47,739 bases of DNA. It comes from a virus. The notes under the pieces were generated by a model that worked only from the letters and a program-made list of their open reading frames with translations, had not been told where the DNA came from and made no database searches. The position numbers and the translations under genes were made by a program. Positions 27,906 to 47,739 of this stretch are shown here, piece after piece. The DNA is taken from positions 1 to 47,739 of IMG/VR virus record IMGVR_UViG_3300031539_000059; one strand, written 5' to 3'. Numbering within the stretch: the first letter of the stretch is position 1; each line of letters begins with the position of its first letter.

Positions 27906-30900
27906 CTAAACTTGAATATGTGCGTAGCCGTCACTTTTGTCTATAACTAGCTGAGTATCTACAATGTCCTTGAGAGCATCTAAGTGAGAAATCAAAATGA
28001 TGGTTTTAAACTGCGTTTTTAGCATTTCCAGCATTCTAATGAACCCTTCCATGTTCTCTTCGTCCAGGGCTGTAGCCGGTTCGTCCAAGATAAATAGGTC
28101 CCCCACAGGCAGGCTGCTTATACGGATTAACGCAACTCTGATAGCAACCGCTGCGAGAGTACGCTCTGCTCCAGAACAGCCGTCCAAGGATCTGGCTGGA
28201 TACTTGGGGTGCCTAATCATAATAGGAAGTTCTTTCCCGTCCTCCTCAAGATAAACCTCAAACTCAACGATATTCGCTAAGATCTTGGAGATTTCTTGAT
28301 TTATGACCGGAAGCTTCTTCTTGATAATGTCGTAAGCGATACCATTACTGTGCATGCACTTCATGTAAAGATCATACGCAGCATACTGCTCACGAAGCTC
28401 TTCTTTTTCAAGCTTTGAGTTCTCTAGATTATCCCATTTCTGTTCAAGAGAACCATGCTCCTTCCAAAGTTCCATCAACTCATTCTGACATTGATCCAAT
28501 TCAGCACCAATATCTCCAAAACTCTTGCTCAGTTTCTTCTTCTCGCTGTGGAGTCTCTTGAGAGTTTTAACCGTCTCTTTGTTCCTGAAATACTCTTCAA
28601 GGTTTCTATTGAACTCTTCAAGCGTGCTCTTCGTATTTACAACAGCGGTGTTGTTTCTTTCTATTTCAAGGTGTAAAGAAGCTATCTTTATGTTCTTGCC
28701 GTTTCTCTCACCGATAAGCCATTCATATTTCTTAATGACCCTCTGAACTTCTGCTGGATTCAGTTCCTTGATCTCGTCGAGAATGTTTTTCTTGTTTGCC
28801 TTTGTGAGATTAATCAAGCCTTCTATTTCTGGAATCTCTTTTCGAGACAGATGAGCATCTAAGAGAAACTGACAATCAGGAAAGAGTTCGCCGCACGGAA
28901 CCTCGCTCAGTAGAGAAGCCTTCTTTTCTTGTCTTGTCTTCTTGCTTAATTCAGAGTTCAATTCAGATGTGATCTTGTCTAGCTTCCTTTGGCTCTCAAT
29001 AGCCAGTCTGTTTTTCTTGCGAAGCTCTTCTATATCAAAATCAGAAAAAAACTGTTCAATTTTCTCTAGATCGTTTTCTGCTTTGCGTACTTCCTCTCCA
29101 TGCTCTTCCTGTAGCGCGAGGCGCTTTGTCAACGACTGTTCGTGAGCACGAATCTTCTCGCGAATCTCTTCCTCGTCAAGAGTATCAATCTCAGGAGACT
29201 TGGCTATTTCAATATCGAGGTCTGACATGTTTTTCGTCAAACCCGATAAGTCTTCTTTCAGTTCTTCAATCTTGCTTTTGTATCCCTGAATGGTTCTTTC
29301 ATTCTCTGCGGCTGCAATCTGAATCGCAGTCAATTCTTCGTCGAAGTCTCTTCCCTCCAGCTTCTTCAAGGCTGCCTTTAGTTCAGAAGCATCTTCATTA
29401 GCTAATCCGTGCTTCTTATCGAAAATCTCAAGATCTAGAAACTTCGCAAGGACTTGTTTGCGCTCTGTAGACCGCGCATCGACAAACGCTAATGAATTTG
29501 TCTGTGATGACATAGAAGTAAGCAAAAAATCGTCCAGAGAACCGAAGAGTCGTTTGATCTCCTTATCGGTTTCTGGGCGGCTTTCACCGTTCAGGTTTCT
29601 CTTCACGTCATCCGGTATTTTATCATGCAGACCATGCGCAAAAAACCCGAAATCTACAGTAGTTTCGGCGCTAGATACGTTACCAGCAGCCTTGGTCGTC
29701 TTTGTGGTTTTGTTCGCGTTCCGATCGATTACGAACGTTCTTTGTCCGATTTCAATTTCGACAGTCCCACGACCATACGCTCTGTTCTGGTTTACAATAT
29801 CAACGTTCTTGCGGATGTTTTTTGAAGTGCTGTTGAAGACCGTCCATAAGAAACTGTCCACAATACTCGACTTACCAGTGAAATTCTTACCAAACACACC
29901 CACAACACCGCTAAGCTTTTCAAAGTCTATGAAATTGTCTTTTCCATAGCTGAATAGATTGTCCCACGACATTCTCTTCATGCTCCAGCGAACGTTTCTT
30001 ACCACTTCATCTTGCTGTTCGGCGAGAGTGTGATATTTCTTGTTTAGTTGTATAACCTTCTCAAGAATATCTGGTTGTACTTCGTATCCAGACAGAAAGT
30101 CTTTTATGATCTTTTCTTGAACCTGCAAATCTCGCAAGTCGTCGTCATTTTGGAGTACCGATGGCTTACCATCGCGAATATCATTTACTTCTGCCTTGTT
30201 GAAGATCGTAACCGTCTGAGGACTAAATCTTGTTTTTGCCGTGTCCATCGCTTGACGAAGTACGTTAAGCGGAACATGGTTTGGTACCGACAAGCGAAGT
30301 CGAGCGTTCTCTGGTACCTGTGCGTCACTAGGAATAAGTCCCTTTTCTGACAGATGCAGAGTGTGGAATGGACTTGGATTAGGAATAGAGATGTGTCTGG
30401 TACGGAAATCGTCCTTGTTTTCTATTTCCCAAATAAGAAATCCCTTGTCGTTCGTCTCGCCATGATTTTGTTGAACTGTAGACCCTGGATAAACGGCTCT
30501 CCCGTCTGGATCGATAGCTTGATTGGTCTTGTGAATATCTCCGAGAAAGACATAATCATATCCCTCAAAAATCTCAAGATCATGTTCTCCGTGCAACAAT
30601 ACAAATCCAGCATCAGTCTCAACACCACTAACAGTCCCGTGATACAACGCAATGTTTATTTTGCTCGGATCAGAGATCTTTTCCCAGTTTTCTTGATCAA
30701 AAACAGACAAAACATTGAACGTCAGTTCGTCTGAGACCGGCACTTCACCAGCAGCCTTAAGCAGATGCAGGTTGGGTAGTCGAAGGGCTGAAACAATCGG
30801 TGAGAGCGCGTCAAGGCGTGTGTGGTTCTTGAGGTTGCCATCGTGGTTTCCGAGGATTATGTATGTTGGAGCAATGGACTCCAATTCGCGGAAGAACCAA

Positions 30901-31085
30901 GAGCACATTTCTATAAACTCTGGTGAAATCTGAGTCTTCGTGTGAGCAATGTCGCCGCAGTGAACAATATAGTCCACCTTCTCGTCACGCAAAATATCAA
31001 ACATCTTTTGAAATACTATACGATATTCATCATGGTATTTCAAATTCCTGATGTGGGTATCAGATATGTGTCCAATCTTAATCAT
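27906..31085 (-). CDS. sbcDC: Fused SbcD-SbcC (gp47-gp46, Mre11-Rad50-type) nuclease-ATPase
   Basis: One 1059-residue chain combining two proteins that are normally separate. Residues 1 to about 340 are an Mre11/SbcD metallophosphatase: SDTHI (Asp9, His11), HCGDIAH (Asp45), LGNHDGN (Asn80, His81), YHGTVS (His149) and LGDIHKT (Asp183, His185). Residues about 372 to 1059 are an SbcC/Rad50 ATPase: Walker A GKNFTGKS (399-406), long coiled-coil arms, an apex with Cys731 and Cys738 (CGELFPDC), then CSGAER signature near 970, LFILDEPATALDEEN Walker B near 993-1008 and an ISHLD H-loop. It would process DNA ends in recombination-dependent replication. A possible internal start at Met372 exists. Primase and resolvase genes are upstream. 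Confidence 0.9.
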   Translation of the reverse strand: MIKIGHISDTHIRNLKYHDEYRIVFQKMFDILRDEKVDYIVHCGDIAHTKTQISPEFIEMCSWFFRELESIAPTYIILGNHDGNLKNHTRLDALSPIVSALRLPNLHLLKAAGEVPVSDELTFNVLSVFDQENWEKISDPSKINIALYHGTVSGVETDAGFVLLHGEHDLEIFEGYDYVFLGDIHKTNQAIDPDGRAVYPGSTVQQNHGETNDKGFLIWEIENKDDFRTRHISIPNPSPFHTLHLSEKGLIPSDAQVPENARLRLSVPNHVPLNVLRQAMDTAKTRFSPQTVTIFNKAEVNDIRDGKPSVLQNDDDLRDLQVQEKIIKDFLSGYEVQPDILEKVIQLNKKYHTLAEQQDEVVRNVRWSMKRMSWDNLFSYGKDNFIDFEKLSGVVGVFGKNFTGKSSIVDSFLWTVFNSTSKNIRKNVDIVNQNRAYGRGTVEIEIGQRTFVIDRNANKTTKTTKAAGNVSSAETTVDFGFFAHGLHDKIPDDVKRNLNGESRPETDKEIKRLFGSLDDFLLTSMSSQTNSLAFVDARSTERKQVLAKFLDLEIFDKKHGLANEDASELKAALKKLEGRDFDEELTAIQIAAAENERTIQGYKSKIEELKEDLSGLTKNMSDLDIEIAKSPEIDTLDEEEIREKIRAHEQSLTKRLALQEEHGEEVRKAENDLEKIEQFFSDFDIEELRKKNRLAIESQRKLDKITSELNSELSKKTRQEKKASLLSEVPCGELFPDCQFLLDAHLSRKEIPEIEGLINLTKANKKNILDEIKELNPAEVQRVIKKYEWLIGERNGKNIKIASLHLEIERNNTAVVNTKSTLEEFNRNLEEYFRNKETVKTLKRLHSEKKKLSKSFGDIGAELDQCQNELMELWKEHGSLEQKWDNLENSKLEKEELREQYAAYDLYMKCMHSNGIAYDIIKKKLPVINQEISKILANIVEFEVYLEEDGKELPIMIRHPKYPARSLDGCSGAERTLAAVAIRVALIRISSLPVGDLFILDEPATALDEENMEGFIRMLEMLKTQFKTIILISHLDALKDIVDTQLVIDKSDGYAHIQV

Positions 31086-31087
31086 TA

Positions 31088-32026
31088 TTAAATTCCTATA
31101 GCTAGCTTCTGCAAATATGTTCTTGAGTCCACTAGCTCTGCTAGCTGAACTCTTCTTGCGTAGCGTTTCTTTCCTAGCTCGCTTACGTCTTCGTCACTGT
31201 CAATGGTTACTTTCCTGCATTCTACGTCATATGACAGTAGGCTTTTTATCAGGCTCATCGCTGATTTTTCTGCATCGGGATCAAGAGCGACATAAACTGG
31301 TACGTCGTGTTTTACAATCTCCTGAAACAGTTTTGAGTCTTCTCTTAGTGAGCTTTGGAGTAGCGGGATCGCGTTTCCAGCAACGATAGCGTCGAAAGCA
31401 CCCTCGACAAGATGAACCGGCTTGTCCCAATCAATGTATAACTGGTTGAAGATGATGTCTTTTGTTGCATTCTCTGGGTTCTTGTATTTATAGCCTCTCG
31501 CATATGTTCTAGCAATGAAGTAGTCCACTTTGCCGTCTAGGTTAAATGACGGAATGATGATTCGCTTCTCATATTCGCCAGACGCGCAATATCCGATTTT
31601 CCATCGTACAATGTCTTCTCTCGTGACGTTTCGCTCTCTTAAGTAGTTTCTAGCAAGAATGGACGAAATATCGTTGTTCTTGTTGGCTAGTGAACGAAAT
31701 TCTTTCGGAAGGCTGATGACTTGAGGCTCCTCGACTGCGGTATCACCAAACATTTCGTCGTACAAGGAAACACTAAGGTCGATAGTGTCTTCAAACTCTT
31801 CCCAAGCTTGTCTTTGAAGGAAATTACCGAATCTCTTAACCAAGCGAGTAACGGAATTGCCCCGCATAGAACACGTCCAGCACTTGAACGCATTCTTGTC
31901 GAGGTTGACACTCAGCTTTGGTTTATGGTGCTTGCAGCTTGGGCAATAAAAAAGCCACTCGCCGCCAGAACGGTAGCAATATCCGAAGATATCTTTTAGG
32001 ACTTTGAGCTTGCTTTCTGCTTCCAT
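31088..32026 (-). CDS. DNA primase (DnaG-type zinc and TOPRIM domains)
   Basis: Makes RNA primers for DNA replication. Residues 28-52 form a CHC2-type zinc site without the usual histidine: Cys28, Cys31, Cys49, Cys52 (YCPSC and CWTC). The TOPRIM domain has HLVEGAFDAIVAG with the conserved Glu, and VYVALDPDAE with the DxD metal motif. 312 residues, smaller than bacterial DnaG, of phage-like size. It starts inside the end of the resolvase gene and ends three bases before the SbcDC fusion, so the three form one unit. It probably works with a DnaB-type helicase encoded elsewhere. Confidence 0.85.
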   Translation of the reverse strand: MEAESKLKVLKDIFGYCYRSGGEWLFYCPSCKHHKPKLSVNLDKNAFKCWTCSMRGNSVTRLVKRFGNFLQRQAWEEFEDTIDLSVSLYDEMFGDTAVEEPQVISLPKEFRSLANKNNDISSILARNYLRERNVTREDIVRWKIGYCASGEYEKRIIIPSFNLDGKVDYFIARTYARGYKYKNPENATKDIIFNQLYIDWDKPVHLVEGAFDAIVAGNAIPLLQSSLREDSKLFQEIVKHDVPVYVALDPDAEKSAMSLIKSLLSYDVECRKVTIDSDEDVSELGKKRYARRVQLAELVDSRTYLQKLAIGI

Positions 32027-32547
32027 AAGGAAAACCCTGCACGGGCGATAATAATGCTGTCAGCCATATCATAGTATTGAGGCTGGGGGTTTCCGTGCTT
32101 CGTCAGTTCTACCACAAAGCCAGGCTCCGTGTCAACAACAAACTGCAACACTACGGGCTTTGCTTTTGTTCCCTTGGGAACTTTTATGCCACAGAACTTT
32201 CTTGCCGTCGTTGCGCCGATGTATTCAGGCTCAACTCCGGTCATTTCATAAATGAGCCAAGAGACTGTCTTGTTCATTCCTGCGAGTGTTAGGAGAGTCT
32301 TCGCGGATGACAAACCCGGACGGAACGCTTGAAGACTCTGTTCGATATAGATCCTTTCAAGAGGTTCATTATCACTTCCACAAAAATTGACAACAACATC
32401 AAGTAACTCATTTTTCAACTTCTCTACTTTCTCAAAAAAGTTCTCGCATTTTCTAGTATCACAATATCCAGTATACACTCTCTTGCCCGAGTTGTCAAGA
32501 ACGGTTATTCCCGTGATGCTCGTACTCACATCTAGACCCATTATCAT
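31996..32547 (-). CDS. ruvC: RuvC-like Holliday-junction resolvase
   Basis: Cuts four-way junctions. Motifs: MGLDVSTSITGITV with the first catalytic Asp, ERIYIEQSLQAF with Glu, and YYDMADSIIIARAG with the final Asp, as in the RuvC/RNase H fold. 183 residues against about 170 for bacterial RuvC. I use the ATG at 32547 (AGGAG five bases upstream); an in-frame GTG two codons earlier is possible. Overlaps the primase gene. In a phage with T4-type packaging it could resolve branched concatemers, a role T4 fills with gp49 (endonuclease VII, unrelated fold). Confidence 0.85.
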   Translation of the reverse strand: MIMGLDVSTSITGITVLDNSGKRVYTGYCDTRKCENFFEKVEKLKNELLDVVVNFCGSDNEPLERIYIEQSLQAFRPGLSSAKTLLTLAGMNKTVSWLIYEMTGVEPEYIGATTARKFCGIKVPKGTKAKPVVLQFVVDTEPGFVVELTKHGNPQPQYYDMADSIIIARAGFSLWKQKASSKS

Positions 32548-32582
32548 ACACACTCCTAAATATGTTCAACGCGATGTTGTCT

Positions 32583-32648
32583 TTATCTAAAAAAGTTTCT
32601 CAAACGTCCTTCAACTTGAATGTGTAAGAGTCCATCTCGGAAGCTCAT
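32583..32648 (-). CDS. Short ORF, 21 residues, overlapping the adhesin stop
   Basis: Begins with an ATG overlapping the adhesin stop (ATGA) and ends at a TAA; encodes MSFRDGLLHIQVEGRL with a basic end. Its DNA largely coincides with the gene relic in the other frame, so it may be a by-product of that. No independent Shine-Dalgarno evidence was found. Confidence 0.2.
   Translation of the reverse strand: MSFRDGLLHIQVEGRLRNFFR
32600..32641 (-). pseudogene. Relic 3' end of a paralogous structural gene
   Basis: Fourteen codons that, read in the adhesin's own frame just after its TGA, give SEMDSYTFKLKDV and then TGA. The 327-residue protein at 38153-39136 ends EIDSYTFKLKVDV. The DNA agrees as well: about 20 of 23 bases around the codons for DSYTFKLK. 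It is likely the left-over end of an older gene from this family, truncated when the adhesin was swapped in. Short length limits certainty, but the frame agreement and DNA match support it. Confidence 0.65.
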
Positions 32649-35446
32649 GTCAAGTCCGGGAACACCGTCCGCGCCCACGTCTCAAGCTGCGCGGCGCTAT
32701 GGTTCTGCGTGATGATGAACTCGGCGTAGTCGCCGTCATAGCAGCGCGCGTTGGCTGAGCCTCCCGCCAGGTCGCCAAGCCGAAGCGTGTCCCATGTGTT
32801 GCTGCCGGGGTTCCCCGACACCGTGATGCCGTTGCTCGACTTGATCGACGACGACGCACCGTTGACGTCGATGATTGCCCACGACCAAACGCCGACGGCG
32901 GCGGCGCCGGCTGCCGTCGTGATCGACGTTCCACCACAGTTGAGGCTTAGCTGCCCCGTCGGGGTGATCGATAGCTGCCAGTAGTTTGCATTCCTCGTCG
33001 GCTGATCAAAGAGGACATCGCCGACGCTACCGCCGAGACCGAGCGACGTCGGGCGGAAGCAGACGAACACGCGCGTGTTTTGCGCGAGCGGCGTCGGCGT
33101 TCCACCGACGTCAAACGCAACGTAATCGCCAACGCTCGTTACCGCCCTGGTCTTCCGCACAAACCCGGCACCACCGAGATACGCCGTCGTCGGTCCGCCC
33201 GTATGATGTGCGGTCCACACGCCGCCGGTGTAAGCCGGGTTGTGGACACCGTAGGGACGGAGCCACTGGACACCACGCCTCATCCCGTGACTCGCGAACC
33301 AGTCGACGGCGGCGGACCCGATGGATGCTCCGTCGGCAGCGTCGACAGCACAGGACTGTCCGGTGAGGTGCATATAGGTACCGGTGAGAACCTGATCAGC
33401 CGCCGACACGCCAGCGGCGACCCCGGTGGTACGGAACGGACCTCGTGCCCCAAGCGCGACCGCGCCGGTGTGCGAGTAAACGTCGGTGAGCGGCACGTCG
33501 CCCATCAGGACGCCTTCGCTTTTCGCGATCTTGAGCACCCTGGTTTCCACCTGATTCGCGGCGGTGCCAGGGAAAACTTTGTTCGCGCGGTAGCCGGTGA
33601 GGTGGCTGTTGAACACCTGTACGTTCTTCCTATTCGCGCTGGCGTTGGCGCCGTGGTTCATCGTGATCCCCGCGTACAGGTAGTCGTCACCGAGGAACAA
33701 CGACGACATGAACACGGAGACAGCGGAACCGAGGAATGGCGCACCGTAGTGAATCGGCATCCACCAGAGAGTGTTACCCGTCGACCATGAGCAACACGCG
33801 ACGAATGCGGATGTTCTGTCCTGATCCGTGAACATAGCGTGCGTTCCGAGAACCGACCCATTCCAGAACGGATCGGGTCCGGCGTTCGCCAAGTACTGAC
33901 TGGAGATGGTGCCACACACGAAGAACCTGTCGTTGTCCTCGTCGATCACAACGTCCCTGACGTTCGTGTCGTTAGGATTTTGCCCGCAGAGAATGTTTCT
34001 TCCCCAGTACTGCGTGAGCCCGTCCGGCGAGAACTTCGCCAGCACCATCAGACTAAGTCCAGCAAAGTTTGGTGCAGTCTCCTTGAACCGCACCTGCTCA
34101 GGAAGCGGGTTGCCGCTCGCGTCCCAGAAACGGTTGCTGTCACCGCTGCATTGCTGCATGGCATTGACGACGAGGAACTTGCCCGTGGAGTCGACACGCG
34201 AGAACCCACCGCCGATCGTCTGCTCGTTTGCCAGAGTCAGCAGCGTCGGGTTTCCATAGGTGGCGTTACCCTGAGCGATGTCGAGCGAGCTGGCAGGCGT
34301 CGCCTTGTCGCGCACGTAGAAGTGCGGAAGGCTGTCGTTGCCGAGCGCCAGCCCGTGGGTCAAGCCGGCATCCCAATAGGTCGTCGCCTCGACGCCGGTG
34401 TACGTGTAGAACGTCTGATCGATCTCGACGGGTGACTGCGGATGCAGACCGACAAGGTCCGACCACGGTCCGCCGCGAAGAAAACCGCCACGATGAAAGT
34501 AGGGCGTGGCGCCGGTACAGTACATGCGACCCCAGCCAGGGGACGAGACGTTGCCGGTCGCCGGGTCCAGACGGTGGAGGTGCGCCATGCCGAAGGTGTT
34601 GGCGATCCTCTGCTCTGCCACCGACAACCCCATGCCTGTCACTCGGTGCTTGCGGTTGAACGTGCCCGCACCGTCGTACGGGAAGAAGTCGACGCTCACC
34701 GCCCAGTTTGCCTCGCTCAGTTGTGCGCTGTCGTGGAAATCGAACGCGACCACAAGCTCGTCCGTGACGTCGTCATATTGCAATGCCGACACCCCGTACG
34801 AGGAGATCTGGGCGTTCGACGGCGGACCGTTGATCGTCATCAGGCGATGAGCCCATTGCAGGACGCCGGAAGCGTTGAACTTCAGTAGCCACGGCTGGTC
34901 AAGCCTGGCACCGGAAGACTGGGCGAACCCCGTGATCGTGGCGACGAGCGCATCGTTGTCGTCGTAGACTTCAAGGCTTTTTGCCCCTGCCGCGCTGGTA
35001 CATCCGAAGTACCCTGCGAAGTAGCAATCGCCGTTGTTTCCGTTCACGGCGCACTGAGTGCCGATCACGGTTTCACCGGTGGTGCTTCTCACCTTGGCAA
35101 GCCATGCCGGCGAGCCAGTGTCGAGGTTCCATCGCCCGACTACAGCCACGTAGTTTGGCGACGTTCCGCCGGTGACAGACACGCCGCCGATCGTCTGCGT
35201 GCCGACGACGTTCAGGTTAAACAAGGCAAGTTCATAGAGGGCAAAAACAATCGGAATAGCAGGACTAACCTGTTCAACCCCAGAAAATGTTGACCCCGGT
35301 GTGCCTCTTCCGCGCAAGAACCCTGGTGGTGGGTTGTTTAGTGACATAGGTACTTGATCGGTACCAACAACAATATGTTGTCGCGTGAGATTTCCTAAAT
35401 TTTTGATAAGGAAACTGTTTCCTATGTTATGTTTCTTTTCAGCCAT
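32645..35446 (-). CDS. High-GC adhesin: anchor + beta-propeller + LamG-like domain
   Basis: Likely a receptor-binding tip protein, 933 residues. Residues 1 to about 60 match the anchor protein encoded nearby (shared VPMSLNNPPPG and LRGRxTPGSxFSGVE) in DNA of normal GC. From about residue 68 the DNA is high-GC. Residues about 80-640 have several SBBP/beta-propeller-like repeats (WLLKFNASGVLQWAHRL, LMVLAKFSPDGLTQYWGR, FVACCSWSTGNTLWWM). Residues about 780-930 have a concanavalin/LamG pattern (RVFVCFRPTSLGLGGSVGD, WSWAIIDVNGASSS, YAEFIITQNHS). Start ATG follows AAGG; it lies after a high-GC jelly-roll gene. Domain names are by pattern, not search. Confidence 0.65.
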   Translation of the reverse strand: MAEKKHNIGNSFLIKNLGNLTRQHIVVGTDQVPMSLNNPPPGFLRGRGTPGSTFSGVEQVSPAIPIVFALYELALFNLNVVGTQTIGGVSVTGGTSPNYVAVVGRWNLDTGSPAWLAKVRSTTGETVIGTQCAVNGNNGDCYFAGYFGCTSAAGAKSLEVYDDNDALVATITGFAQSSGARLDQPWLLKFNASGVLQWAHRLMTINGPPSNAQISSYGVSALQYDDVTDELVVAFDFHDSAQLSEANWAVSVDFFPYDGAGTFNRKHRVTGMGLSVAEQRIANTFGMAHLHRLDPATGNVSSPGWGRMYCTGATPYFHRGGFLRGGPWSDLVGLHPQSPVEIDQTFYTYTGVEATTYWDAGLTHGLALGNDSLPHFYVRDKATPASSLDIAQGNATYGNPTLLTLANEQTIGGGFSRVDSTGKFLVVNAMQQCSGDSNRFWDASGNPLPEQVRFKETAPNFAGLSLMVLAKFSPDGLTQYWGRNILCGQNPNDTNVRDVVIDEDNDRFFVCGTISSQYLANAGPDPFWNGSVLGTHAMFTDQDRTSAFVACCSWSTGNTLWWMPIHYGAPFLGSAVSVFMSSLFLGDDYLYAGITMNHGANASANRKNVQVFNSHLTGYRANKVFPGTAANQVETRVLKIAKSEGVLMGDVPLTDVYSHTGAVALGARGPFRTTGVAAGVSAADQVLTGTYMHLTGQSCAVDAADGASIGSAAVDWFASHGMRRGVQWLRPYGVHNPAYTGGVWTAHHTGGPTTAYLGGAGFVRKTRAVTSVGDYVAFDVGGTPTPLAQNTRVFVCFRPTSLGLGGSVGDVLFDQPTRNANYWQLSITPTGQLSLNCGGTSITTAAGAAAVGVWSWAIIDVNGASSSIKSSNGITVSGNPGSNTWDTLRLGDLAGGSANARCYDGDYAEFIITQNHSAAQLETWARTVFPDLT

Positions 35447-41639: not shown

Positions 41640-44408
41640 TTAAGCCTTCTCGGAGTCTCGATGCTCAAAAGTAAAATATACTTCAACTTTCTTTCCGGTA
41701 GCTTTTGAAATTAAACGCATCTTGAACCTTTTACCCCAAAGCGCGTCAGAGACAACGCCAAGGTGGATAGACCTTCTCACATCTTCCGCAGTATTAGCTA
41801 GATCATAACCAGATTTTTCTTCATTTATTAATGTTTGCAGTACGTTTGGTACCAGTTGAACAAACCTACGAGCAGGCTTCATTTGCTCTCTTACCTCTTT
41901 CCTAAACTCTACACACCTAACCAGCGGAAAGATTAAGCCGTTTTCATTAATCATTTCCAACTCAAATACAGCTGTTGGGTTCGAAATCTGTCCGTGTACA
42001 TCAATCGAGCGGAACGTGTAATAGTATTTGATATTAGGTAGGATACCGTCAACATAAGCCACTGATGTGGCTCCCTGCAAAGACTTTAGATCAACATCTG
42101 TGTCTACTCTAGCTCGCAATGAGCCAGCAAAATCTGCATAACTTGCAGGATGCTGTTCAATTCTAAAGATCTCGAATATACTTGGATGATCGTCAGATGC
42201 AAAAGCCAATTTCTCATCTACGTCTCTTTTTTGAGCTTCACGAGAAAAACTAAAAGCTGCCTGATCAGATGGCTCAATGAACACTGGATAATCCTCGTAA
42301 GATCCCACGTTACCCTTGAGATACAGCTCCATTTTGTTATCATATCCCTTGAAAGGGATAAAATCTACGTCTGGCTGTACAGGTGGCTTGTCGACAACAC
42401 GAACTTCCTGCTCTAGAAACAGAGTCTCTACCAGGCGCAAATCAGGCTCTTGATGGACCATCACTGATGCATGATGATCGTAGCTATCCACCTCTAGAGT
42501 AGAATATTCGTACTTGGTACCAATAACGAGTTGATATGCCCAAACCTTATAGACGTACTTCTTGTTGTACTTCACCTGTGTATCGATAAAACGAAACACA
42601 TCAATCTCATTTGAATTTGGCAACCAGAAGTTCTGGATTGGCTCGCCATCTCCATTAAACTCATGTTTTGCTACTCGATACAACACGGTTTCTGAATATG
42701 CTTTCTTTCCATCCATCATTTGTTTGAATGTTCTCATCTTCTGCGAGATAAGCGTCTGCAACTTGCTCATAAAGATGACAAACATCAAACTGTTGAAGAA
42801 TTTGTACTGTGGTCCAGAGCTAGCAGCCACTTCGTTTTCGTGCTCACCAAGGAAGAGTGCTTTCTCGCGGATAAGCTCAGTCTCACTACGCCTCAAATCT
42901 TCAAGCAGAACTGCAACATTCCACGATCGATGTTGCCCAGACTTCAAGGAGGCATTTTTGCTCTTGTTATCTTGTCCTCCTTTTTGCACGATGGTTTCGG
43001 TGGCTGTCTCAACGTTCAGAGTCTCAGAATTTCCATCGATTACTCTATTCATCACCTTCGTCATGAACGTTTCAGACAGATTTGTGTCTTTTAGCATCTC
43101 AGCAAAGGTGGTTGTTCTGTCTGTCGAAATCTTCATATCGACAACTAAAGGAAACATTTCCTTCTTATCGTTGAAGTTCTGGAAGATCTTGAATTCTGAC
43201 AGCGGTACCGCGACATTAGAGTATTTTGCCTTAAGTCGTTCGACTGCCCCATTATCAATCGCTTTCTGATACTGACGAGAGTAAAGATCGTAGTATTGTC
43301 CAACCGGATGGGTCTTAATGTCGAACTTGGTCCTGCCAGTTTTGTTGTTCAGAACGGCAGCTTCTGATTCCAACGTACCGTCAAGAGTAATCAGGTTGTT
43401 TAGCTCTGGATTCGGATGTTCGCTGCTAAGTACACTCAAAAAGGTATACATATTTGGCAAAGTATTCTCAGGTACATCAGTTCTCGCAAGAAGGTTTTCG
43501 TACCCTTTAATATAGAAGTTGTATTCTGGAAGGATATCGGCAGTTAAAGCATTGACAGGAACCTGCATATCCTCAAGCTCTTCCGAGGTAAACGGAAATG
43601 GCATTTCGTAGGTATGATCAAAGAATGTAGAACTAGTGTCGATGGTAGCATCGAAAACTTTGGCTGTGTTACCTGTTTTTCCAGTAGAACCATTGTACTC
43701 GCCGCCGCGTACAAAAGTGCTCCAGTAATTTCTAGAAAATTGTTCTACAGCGTTGCTGAACCTTTTCTTGTTTGCCTTGAGATCAACCCACTGCACTGTG
43801 CGCCCAAAATCAGAGTTTACCTGCTCATTAAACGGCTCGTGATATGTAAACTTGTATGGAGCGTCTATACGGGCGCGTGAATCGATATCAAGATAGACCA
43901 TGTTCCTGTTGTCTTTATCTAGGGTCCAATATTTTCCTACTCTACCTCTCAATGGATCTTTAACGAATCTTTTATTAGATTCGATATCGGTATTCTTGAA
44001 GTCTTCTAGTTTATCGCCGAACGTCTCGCTGTTAACAGATAGGTAGTTCCTGCCTGCTGCGATAATTTCAGTAGATCTAACAGAAACCTCTTCTTTAACC
44101 TCAGATAGAGGAGCAAAGTCTTCGCTTCTAGCTTCGCGAGACTGAATCCTCTCTATTAGTTGCTCAGAGGTGTACATCGACAATCGATCACTTGTAGGAA
44201 GGACGGACTTGATGCCGGGGAGGTCGATGATGGCGTTAGAGCGCATGCGGCGAGCGTCAGGAGCACTAACGGGAGTGGTGATAAGGCTGCTTATTTTTTG
44301 TGCTACATCAGCACCGAGAACCTCTTGTTCAACAGCACTGGGTTGCTCGTTTCGCTGAGGAGACAAGCTGCTATTCATTGCAGAGATTATTGTATTCCTA
44401 GAAGCCAT
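41640..44408 (-). CDS. Large structural protein with fibronectin-III-like parts
   Basis: 922 residues, unknown function. N-terminal 100 residues are disordered-looking with EEVSVRSTEIIAAG. Residues about 600-850 include fibronectin type III-like strands (KYVYKVWAYQLVIGTKYEY; IKYYYTFRSIDVHGQISNP), consistent with a baseplate or fibre-base protein. Long helices of residues about 200-330 and 430-600 resemble a baseplate wedge component. Overlaps the upstream gene by one base (TAATG). No enzyme motif visible. Confidence 0.55.
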   Translation of the reverse strand: MASRNTIISAMNSSLSPQRNEQPSAVEQEVLGADVAQKISSLITTPVSAPDARRMRSNAIIDLPGIKSVLPTSDRLSMYTSEQLIERIQSREARSEDFAPLSEVKEEVSVRSTEIIAAGRNYLSVNSETFGDKLEDFKNTDIESNKRFVKDPLRGRVGKYWTLDKDNRNMVYLDIDSRARIDAPYKFTYHEPFNEQVNSDFGRTVQWVDLKANKKRFSNAVEQFSRNYWSTFVRGGEYNGSTGKTGNTAKVFDATIDTSSTFFDHTYEMPFPFTSEELEDMQVPVNALTADILPEYNFYIKGYENLLARTDVPENTLPNMYTFLSVLSSEHPNPELNNLITLDGTLESEAAVLNNKTGRTKFDIKTHPVGQYYDLYSRQYQKAIDNGAVERLKAKYSNVAVPLSEFKIFQNFNDKKEMFPLVVDMKISTDRTTTFAEMLKDTNLSETFMTKVMNRVIDGNSETLNVETATETIVQKGGQDNKSKNASLKSGQHRSWNVAVLLEDLRRSETELIREKALFLGEHENEVAASSGPQYKFFNSLMFVIFMSKLQTLISQKMRTFKQMMDGKKAYSETVLYRVAKHEFNGDGEPIQNFWLPNSNEIDVFRFIDTQVKYNKKYVYKVWAYQLVIGTKYEYSTLEVDSYDHHASVMVHQEPDLRLVETLFLEQEVRVVDKPPVQPDVDFIPFKGYDNKMELYLKGNVGSYEDYPVFIEPSDQAAFSFSREAQKRDVDEKLAFASDDHPSIFEIFRIEQHPASYADFAGSLRARVDTDVDLKSLQGATSVAYVDGILPNIKYYYTFRSIDVHGQISNPTAVFELEMINENGLIFPLVRCVEFRKEVREQMKPARRFVQLVPNVLQTLINEEKSGYDLANTAEDVRRSIHLGVVSDALWGKRFKMRLISKATGKKVEVYFTFEHRDSEKA

Positions 44409-47400
44409 TATCCTTTTCCACCTGCTGTTCTTTTAGCGCTGCTGGGACGAGAGCGTGAAGTTGGTCCAGAAGCCACTACGCCCATTCTGTTGCTATACTG
44501 TTGTCCGTTATCGTCTAGACCGCTATTAACCGTCTGCCTTTCCGCAAGAGGTTCATCCGCAACAGAAGATTGTCCGCCAGCCATTAGCCCAACTCTTTGT
44601 AGCTCTGCAATAACGATAGCAAGAACCTCTAGATTAGTGGCATTGTCCGGGAGCAACAGCACGATACTTCTTGCTTGCGCTTGAGTGAGTGCTGGCAACG
44701 AAAATCCTTCGAAGTGTCCAATCCGTTTAGTCAGCTCTGCAACGAAATCGACGCATTGATCATCGCTGATGTTCGCGTCAGCTGCTTGCGAATTCGCCAA
44801 GGCTTGTCCCTGGTCAGCCATAGAAAGATTTGGTGGCGTCGCAGTCGCAATCACCGTGGATGGCACTTCGTTCGTCTGACAGTCCAGGGCGAGCATCTCG
44901 CCAATTGTCACCGGTTCTGCGCGTACAATTAAGTTTGATGGTCCGACCTGAACTCCTGCTACTAAACCTGGGCTCCCCAGAGAACGGGATGGAGCACTCG
45001 CTTCGTCAGATAGAGCGAGGGTGGTTGTTCTTTTCTCGCCGAAACGGTCTATCTCTACAATGCTAATGCTTACTGGATGTACTGTTACTCCAGATGTGCC
45101 GCCATTGGTTTCTACGTTTGTCAACGGCAAATTCTTTTTTGCGTTGTTGGGGCTTGGCAAAGGAGTGGGCTCGCGGACCACCGTCACATCAACGCCCGGT
45201 ATGTTCAGCTTGATCTGATCTGCGATCTTAACAACCACATCGTTTGTTCCCAAAGGAAGCGGAACTGCACGGATAGGCGCTCTCTTGAACTTCGGACTTA
45301 GTATAAAGTATTCGTCGTAAGTGGTCGTTTGGACACCCAAGGCTCTCCGGAGCCCCAAAGCTTCATTCTCATACGGAGTCATGCGACATAGGACATCTTT
45401 TCCTACAAATTGATTGTTTTTTTCGTCCGTGAGCATCTTCCAGATTGGCTGTCGCATCAAAACAGTATTACGTGCGTTAACTTCAAATCCAGCCAGATAT
45501 TCAATCTTCATCAGCATTTCGAAGTCCAGTCTCAAAGAAGATGCCTGACGTTGTTTGATCGTAGCGTCACCAGAACCAATTCCAGCAAATTTTGACTGTC
45601 TCGTGACGTTTTGTGATGCGCTTTGCAAGAACACAGCCTTCAATTGATTAGGCAACGCCTTTATATCGTTATCGGTAATAACGCGGTTGAGTCCATGAAT
45701 CGTTCTAGTCGCGCCGGGACGCCCAGCAACAGATTTTGATTTCAAACCTAGCATGCTCACTTCATTAATCAAAGAACCTCTGTTTTTGGTTGCTGTCATG
45801 ATCGACCCAGGCTTATTTCTAGTAGATCTCTTGTTCTTTTCAGACGAGTCTCCAGTCTGTACTGCCGAAGCCAAGAGAGCGAGCATAAATGTGTTCTTTG
45901 CCTGAGTTTCTTCTGTACTCATCCCTGCATCTTCGCCCTGTTGACTAGAAATACGCTTTGAAACATCGGTTTCCACGTTTGGAGCCTTAGTGATGAACCC
46001 AGCACCTGCGCGGCTGCGAGGAGTAGCCCTGAGTAGCGTTGCTCCAGTAGCATCATCTTTCTTTGCGTTGACAACGATAGGTGTGATTACAACGCTTGCT
46101 TGTTCTGCCAAAAGCGAACTCAAGGCATTAGAAATAGTTTCCTGGGTGATTTTAGCAGGATCATTCCGCATTTTACCCTTGTTTTTCTTGCTAGTTAAAC
46201 CACCAGAAATACTTCTCGCAACGGTTGCACCGACAGGTGCTCTAGTAGAGTTTTGATATAGAGTAAGCGCTTGAATCTCTGTCGCCGCATCGTCTCTTGA
46301 GGTTGTACCGTTGTCGATATGGACCAACATCCTTCTCTTTTTTGTTTTAGTGTCTGGTGGATTGCTGATATCCACCCCTTCCGCAAGAACAATAGACTTG
46401 TGGAACAAATCAATCCTTGAGGGTGACAGATAAGAGAAATTGGTGTTTCTGATGTTGTCATCTGACGTAAATGTTTCACTACCAAGAGACAGGTTGATAT
46501 CAGGGTTCGTGTCTTTGTAGTATTTTAGGGTCTCCGAATTGATACGATCAACATAGCTGTTATTTTTGAACGTTCTCAAACCATCAGCATTCGCAGTATT
46601 GTCAGGTCCGTCAGAAAGATAATCAGCACCAACCCCTTTAACTATGTCACTATCGAACGTCTGATCGAAGAACTTGACAATCTTATAGGTTCTCTTTGCG
46701 CTCTTTCCCTGGTTGTAGATCGCCGGCTGACGTGTAGAAGAGGTAGAGCCGTCAAACTTCCTTGGAGAAACGTTCAGAGTCGTTCCGGAGATAAGCGCTA
46801 ACTTTGTCGCCAACTCATCGATCAGTTTGATAACAGTGGAAATGCCAGATGGATTTCCTGTTATGGGCGAGGTATAAGAGTGCAAGGACTTAAGGAGTCT
46901 AGAACGTACATCACGAGAACGAAAAGCACCGGTAAACAAGTCAAGAGTATCTGCGTACACGGTCACAGCAGCAATCCAGGGCGCACGAATCTGCATATTT
47001 CCACTATACTTTTTACGTTGCTTCGTCGCAAAATCTTGGGTAAAACGATTGGAAGCGACATCAAACGCCCCGGCAATCACCCCTTTGGTACCTGCGGATT
47101 CAGAAGGATGGTCTATATGCGGATCCCTGTTCTCAGCCAAGTACCTAGACATAGACGGCACAGATGCTTCAGCCAAATAATACTCTAAATCGACTCTTGC
47201 GTTGATGAGCATGTTGACGCGCTCTCTCATTAACTCAATGGTAGAATCATCGACTTCCAATTCAACACCGTATTGGTAAAGTCCATCGGTTACATCGGAC
47301 ATAGTATAGTCCATGCCTGTGAAGTGACGAACTGATGGCTGCTCCTTCTCAAGAATAACCTCGACTTCTTTTAGCGAGCCTCTAGAAGAACGAACAGCGC

Positions 47401-47739
47401 TGAAATTCTTCCAATCTTTCTCTCCAGAGGAGATAATGTACTCATCTGGCTCTTGTCTATCGAATTGTGTTATGCCTACAGGGGACCCAAGCTGGTTAAG
47501 GCTTCCGTTTTCCTTAACTCGACGACGGAACACCCTCATTGCACGAATTTTTGTCTTTTGGACCATGCTTTGACGTAAGCGTGGGGCGGCGTTCGTGATC
47601 AAGCGTCCAAAGACGGTGTTTTCTTCAGTCAGCTTGTCAAAATCAACAGAGAAAAAGAATTTCGAGTCTCCGTCTTTGTCTCTGGACAACAACATGTTCG
47701 AAAAATAGATCGGCTTACGTTCAGAGTCGATTCTATCGG
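44408..47739 (-). CDS. Very large structural protein, N-terminus beyond window edge
   Basis: At least 1109 codons are open; the frame continues from the visible ATG at 47695 to the window end without a stop (upstream codons give IYFSN before the Met), and no Shine-Dalgarno precedes that ATG, so the true start is probably outside. Middle residues carry basic/Gly-rich stretches (GGTSGVTVHPVSISIVEID, TTRKNRGS-type) and the C-terminus is disordered. No recognisable motif; it may be a baseplate or tape-like component. Marked partial. Confidence 0.6.
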   Translation of the reverse strand, partial: DRIDSERKPIYFSNMLLSRDKDGDSKFFFSVDFDKLTEENTVFGRLITNAAPRLRQSMVQKTKIRAMRVFRRRVKENGSLNQLGSPVGITQFDRQEPDEYIISSGEKDWKNFSAVRSSRGSLKEVEVILEKEQPSVRHFTGMDYTMSDVTDGLYQYGVELEVDDSTIELMRERVNMLINARVDLEYYLAEASVPSMSRYLAENRDPHIDHPSESAGTKGVIAGAFDVASNRFTQDFATKQRKKYSGNMQIRAPWIAAVTVYADTLDLFTGAFRSRDVRSRLLKSLHSYTSPITGNPSGISTVIKLIDELATKLALISGTTLNVSPRKFDGSTSSTRQPAIYNQGKSAKRTYKIVKFFDQTFDSDIVKGVGADYLSDGPDNTANADGLRTFKNNSYVDRINSETLKYYKDTNPDINLSLGSETFTSDDNIRNTNFSYLSPSRIDLFHKSIVLAEGVDISNPPDTKTKKRRMLVHIDNGTTSRDDAATEIQALTLYQNSTRAPVGATVARSISGGLTSKKNKGKMRNDPAKITQETISNALSSLLAEQASVVITPIVVNAKKDDATGATLLRATPRSRAGAGFITKAPNVETDVSKRISSQQGEDAGMSTEETQAKNTFMLALLASAVQTGDSSEKNKRSTRNKPGSIMTATKNRGSLINEVSMLGLKSKSVAGRPGATRTIHGLNRVITDNDIKALPNQLKAVFLQSASQNVTRQSKFAGIGSGDATIKQRQASSLRLDFEMLMKIEYLAGFEVNARNTVLMRQPIWKMLTDEKNNQFVGKDVLCRMTPYENEALGLRRALGVQTTTYDEYFILSPKFKRAPIRAVPLPLGTNDVVVKIADQIKLNIPGVDVTVVREPTPLPSPNNAKKNLPLTNVETNGGTSGVTVHPVSISIVEIDRFGEKRTTTLALSDEASAPSRSLGSPGLVAGVQVGPSNLIVRAEPVTIGEMLALDCQTNEVPSTVIATATPPNLSMADQGQALANSQAADANISDDQCVDFVAELTKRIGHFEGFSLPALTQAQARSIVLLLPDNATNLEVLAIVIAELQRVGLMAGGQSSVADEPLAERQTVNSGLDDNGQQYSNRMGVVASGPTSRSRPSSAKRTAGGKG

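Follow-up and report, generated by a model that had tools for sequence, protein, structure and literature searches.

A fused Mre11-Rad50 (SbcDC) gene in a contig of a tailed phage

The window, meaning the whole stretch of DNA that was analysed, is a viral contig of 47,739 bases. It carries genes for a major head protein, a portal, a head maturation protease and a terminase, and thus belongs to a tailed phage. Positions 27906-31085 on the minus strand form one open reading frame, from ATG to stop, that encodes 1059 amino acids. Pfam matches in this frame are Metallophos at residues 2-186 (E = 3.8e-13), AAA_23 at 375-613 (7.2e-8) and SMC_N at 785-1036 (6e-11). PHROGs assigns residues 1-280 to the SbcD-like phrog_100 (2.5e-39) and residues 368-1053 to the SbcC-like phrog_77 (2.7e-57). 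These results confirm the observation in an earlier note that Mre11-type and Rad50-type motifs share an uninterrupted 1059-codon frame, with the nuclease half N-terminal and the ATPase half C-terminal, and together with the motif sets they support its identification of the protein as an SbcD-SbcC (Mre11-Rad50) fusion. The NCBIfam models for Rad50, SbcC and SbcD match only far under their cut-offs, as is expected of a divergent viral form. The features of the gene and of its upstream neighbors are as follows.

27906..31085, minus strand: Mre11-Rad50 (SbcD-SbcC) fusion gene, 1059 amino acids (open reading frame, Pfam, PHROGs, relatives)
30381..31085, minus strand: Mre11/SbcD phosphoesterase (nuclease) domain, residues 1-235 (Pfam Metallophos, invariant residues; end estimated from the model)
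within 30381..31085, minus strand: phosphoesterase motifs GHISDTHI, GDIAH, GNHD, YHGT and GDIH
30192..30380, minus strand: putative Mre11 capping-type domain, residues ~236-298 (AlphaFold2 secondary structure; by analogy with T. maritima Mre11)
30012..30128, minus strand: helix-loop-helix, residues 320-358, the Rad50-binding element in canonical Mre11 (model helices 320-334 and 338-358)
29991..30011, minus strand: junction linker, residues 359-365 (AlphaFold2 model and relatives)
29436..29990, minus strand: Rad50/SbcC N-terminal ATPase lobe, residues 366-550 (Pfam, conserved residues, model)
29865-29891, minus strand: Walker A GKNFTGKSS, in the N-terminal ATPase lobe, whose Q-loop is Q528
28353..29429, minus strand: antiparallel coiled coil, residues 553-911 (model helices)
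28872..28895, minus strand: hook at the coil apex, C731-x6-C738 (PCGELFPDC), putatively zinc-binding (translation of the frame, alignment)
27909..28352, minus strand: Rad50/SbcC C-terminal ATPase lobe, residues 912-1059 (Pfam, conserved residues, model)
28062-28103, minus strand: Walker B LFILDEP with the D-loop; the same lobe holds the signature CSGAER and the His switch ISHLD
31088..32026, minus strand: DNA primase, 2 bp upstream of the fusion gene (Pfam and PHROGs)
31996..32553, minus strand: RuvC-like Holliday junction resolvase (PHROGs phrog_159, 5.6e-6)

A primase adjoins the fusion gene on the same strand in 156 of the 168 relatives that have enough flanking sequence, and a RuvC-like resolvase lies near it in 63 of 145. 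This neighborhood fits a replication/recombination operon. The window also holds three large open reading frames, at 32645-35446 (933 amino acids), 41640-44408 (922) and 44408-47695 (1095), that gave no match in Pfam and PHROGs scans.

The Rad50/SbcC set of Walker A, Q-loop, signature, Walker B, His switch and coiled coil is complete in the window protein. At least 598 IMG/VR stretches were confirmed as relatives of the fusion, and 184 fetched loci with both domains in one open frame yielded 159 distinct complete proteins; because the relatives were collected with fused queries, keeping the best 80 per scan, these counts give no fraction of phages in which the genes are fused. The metal-site residues D9, D45, H48, N80, H81, H149, D183 and H185 are identical in all 159 proteins, and H11 is kept in 149. 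Equally invariant (159/159) are N401, G404 and K405 of Walker A, Q528, S971, G972 and E974 of the signature, D1001 and E1002 of Walker B, and the switch residue H1034. Motif V reads GDIH in the window protein, as opposed to the canonical Mre11 GHxH, and judging from these residues the metal geometry may differ from that of canonical Mre11.

Errors are possible in metagenomic contigs, and an assembly or sequencing artefact could in principle join two genes. However, the same open frame recurs in 184 loci from many samples, and fused frames are also present in the complete genomes of the isolated phages Mel-JY01 and XacN1, so that an artefact is hardly conceivable. Relatives at about 43-50% identity keep the full-length frame with no stop at the junction, and contigs with relatives at 43-49% identity reach 160-200 kb. 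Given its length and this retention in independent contigs, the frame reflects neither chance nor a sequencing error or frameshift. The stop or frameshift between the halves that the earlier note named as grounds for rejecting a fusion was not found, and independent relatives are open across the junction.

L108 was considered as a split member inside the clade and rejected; it is a truncated frame in a contig of a metagenome-assembled genome whose other open reading frames look bacterial, and is probably a chimera. L098 (7962-10055) carries a truncated fusion of 698 amino acids, 50% identical to the window protein, in a contig labelled as chromosome of candidate division WOR-3, which is either a provirus or a chimeric assembly. 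In Stenotrophomonas phage RAS14 (L126, 2001-5310), an XacN1-type fusion was matched in two pieces and the annotated coding sequence starts late; its Mre11 half likely carries a frameshift or sequencing error.

An AlphaFold2 model of the protein, built with 43 sequences, has a mean pLDDT of 82.3 and a pTM of 0.48; at these values, the individual domains can be used, and how they are placed relative to each other is unsure. The model starts with a phosphoesterase and continues with a cap-like domain to ~298, a disordered segment at 299-313 (pLDDT <50) and the helix-loop-helix at 320-358; ~7 linker residues then lead to Rad50, whose first strand spans 366-375. The division into halves 1-340 and 372-1059 proposed in the earlier note is thus close; a better boundary falls between 358, where the helix ends, and 366, where the strand starts. 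From the end of the helix-loop-helix to Rad50 residue W367, the distance is 6-8 residues in 159/159 proteins. In T. maritima, the helix-loop-helix binds Rad50 at the root of its coil, and ~28 Å separate the C-terminus of Mre11 from the N-terminus of Rad50, a gap of 9-12 residues, the linker estimate given in 2011 (PMC3175470). By this geometry, the fusion point is where a tether costs least.

A fused frame might still yield separate halves as the working enzyme, if translation started internally near M369/M372 or if the chain were cut by proteolysis within the segment 299-313. In the window, two in-frame ATGs stand where the Rad50 half begins, the second preceded by GGAG at ~10 nt, and residues 299-313 are the segment modelled as disordered. 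However, M369 is present only in the window protein, the other 158 proteins having L, P, I, V, A or F at this position, and M372 is kept in 5 of 159. When an internal start was searched for across the 159 proteins, an ATG or GTG with a Shine-Dalgarno-like motif was found at the junction in 4/159, against 2-4/159 in control stretches, and hence without enrichment. These sequence comparisons do not support a separate Rad50 made by internal initiation, and we consider it improbable that the halves work as separate chains.

Fusions of this kind have been described before. Yoshida, Claverie and Ogata reported thirteen Mre11/Rad50 fusions in 2011, including Mimivirus R555 and one from Bacillus phage 0305phi8-36, as well as fusions on plasmids, and found R555 homologs to be abundant in aquatic viral metagenomes, partly as probable phage-derived sequences (PMC3175470). 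The suspicion voiced in the earlier note that the fusion is less rare than it seems is borne out by that study and by the IMG/VR relatives, which show the fusion to be common in uncultivated viruses. A literature query on fused Mre11/Rad50 as one polypeptide in phages returned no result. The window protein belongs to this known kind and is probably among the phage homologs that were anticipated in 2011. Like the window protein, R555 has an N-terminal Mre11 and a C-terminal Rad50 in one frame, with a short linker between helix-loop-helix and Rad50, and the marine metagenome scaffolds of R555 type are likewise aquatic viral sequences with the gene beside phage primases (PMC3175470). R555 departs twice from the canonical motifs, with His in GDxxH and with Asp in place of His206 of P. 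furiosus Mre11 (PMC3175470); taking R555 as described there, both departures (GDIAH and GDIH) recur in the window protein and in 159/159 relatives. R555 is longer, at 1351 amino acids versus the 1059 of the window protein, which is from a tailed phage, and the two are likened through the published residues and the fold search.

The fold search against solved structures returned Mre11-Rad50 complexes and other SMC-type ATPases as best matches, with C. thermophilum Mre11-Rad50-Nbs1 first. Among viral proteins, fused phage proteins and DNA repair proteins of giant viruses matched best. Giant-virus proteins of similar or greater length made up most of the top structural matches, and a recombination exonuclease of Listeria phage LMTA-57 (1009 amino acids) and Tenacibaculum phage proteins (1310-1318 amino acids) were also listed.

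Among named phages, the fusion of Microcystis phage Mel-JY01 (1066 amino acids, with a primase upstream) and that of the uncultured phage LR756508 are each collinear with the window protein over its full length at ~30% identity. The LR756501 protein is longer (1202 amino acids) and very divergent. Separate trees were built for the Mre11 half and for the Rad50 ATPase lobes (32 sequences), and both place these three fusions on the window-type branch. In both trees, 23 window-type fusions form one branch, with support of 99/98 for the Mre11 half and 99/94 for the Rad50 half, and the split forms of T4 and other phages branch elsewhere. The agreement of the half-trees indicates that the window-type fusions are one old clade.

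The isolated jumbo phage XacN1 has the same architecture in a protein of 1099 amino acids, annotated as a recombination endonuclease subunit. It differs from the window protein in its canonical GHFH and CxxC hook and in its independent origin, as it pairs in both trees with the split form of phage 121Q (98/91 and 100/98). Thus, the simplest reading of the trees is that fusion arose twice among the phages included; the long branches of E. coli, Moonbeam and L015 leave the deep order unsure. The split sbcD and sbcC genes of 121Q share a strand with 8 bp between them, and this arrangement beside the fused sister XacN1 shows how a fusion can form. In the window lineage, fusion would have followed once adjacent sbcD and sbcC genes lost the boundary that separated them. 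Fused SbcDC is an old, stable condition that is abundant among aquatic phages, and according to these trees it arose separately at least twice in tailed phages.

The CxxC zinc hook, which is common although not universal in Rad50/SbcC, is absent from the window protein, where the two cysteines are separated by six residues. Hook cysteines 6-7 residues apart (PCGxxFxxC) were seen in the window protein and in up to 79 of 159 relatives; across the alignment, the spacing is 2 in 66 sequences, 6 in 60 and 7 in 9. The window subclade has C-x6-C or C-x7-C, in contrast to the CxxC hook of the Mel-JY01 type, T4, Moonbeam and XacN1. A literature search on zinc binding by such C-x6-C/C-x7-C hooks found nothing relevant. 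Tentatively, and with doubt, we suggest that a conserved C-x6/7-C loop (PCGxxFxxC[KQ]F) replaced CxxC in the hook of the fusion clade and that, together with the covalent Mre11-Rad50 tether, this loop may dimerise or tether DNA in another way than the standard zinc hook does.

Overall, we are highly confident that the product of the gene is an Mre11-Rad50 (SbcDC) enzyme in a single chain, which processes DNA ends for a large tailed phage, with the origin proposed above and the mechanism that follows. T4 gp47/gp46 and E. coli SbcD/SbcC have the same domain families and presumably catalyse the same reaction. As the earlier note stated, these are two genes in T4 and in bacteria: gp47 and gp46 are separate with two small open reading frames between them, and E. 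coli sbcD and sbcC are also separate. The T4 motifs are GDIFD and GHFH, versus GDIAH and GDIH in the window protein. Most likely, the fused enzyme works as an ordinary M2R2 complex of two identical chains. The chains would be held together by the ATPase heads of Rad50, the dimer interface of Mre11 and the hooked coil. Driven by ATP, the heads would open and close and so gate the nuclease, which would trim or nick blocked DNA ends or hairpins. The processed ends would then feed phage recombination and recombination-dependent replication, as with T4 gp46/gp47.

Mre11-Rad50 forms a 1:1 M2R2 complex even when unfused. Consequently, the proposal that fusion forces 1:1 stoichiometry adds little. The effect of fusion would mainly be guaranteed co-synthesis and tethering. 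Ideas of the enzyme's mechanism are left unchanged. A natural single-chain Mre11-Rad50, whose subunits cannot come apart, should be useful for structural work.

A role in defence or inter-phage exclusion, resembling that of a Lamassu-like SMC protein, instead of phage recombination is suggested by a PADLOC match of LmuB to residues 376-1043 (2.2e-25) and by Lamassu and JetABC among the fold matches. Pfam and PHROGs scans of the neighbors recognised no lmuA. LmuB is itself Rad50-like, however, and with an ATPase in common such a match is to be expected. The full Mre11 nuclease, the adjoining primase and resolvase, and the wide distribution of the gene in its lineage also argue against such a role. 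We thus regard a defence role as very improbable and favor the recombination enzyme.

The fusion gene itself appears to be a target of homing endonucleases. In L016 (4164-5077) and L034 (6959-7905), a GIY-YIG/NUMOD3 homing endonuclease gene lies directly behind a complete fusion gene, and after it comes a second copy of the 3' end. This copy comprises the final ~63 codons, from Walker B onward, and shares 80% (L016) or 77% (L034) nucleotide identity with the first. The endonuclease looks to have been inserted together with a replacement 3' end. In the 484-kb phage LR756508 (L014, 7944-12169), the fusion gene is broken just after GDIHK by ~1 kb that contains a 305-amino-acid open reading frame with a TnsA-like endonuclease domain. 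An Rfam search of this locus found no intron, including group I, and the interruption is either an intron or a gene split. In L071 (9156-9368), a duplicated 3' end with 65% nucleotide identity directly follows the fusion gene with no endonuclease between them, and is possibly a remnant left after endonuclease loss.
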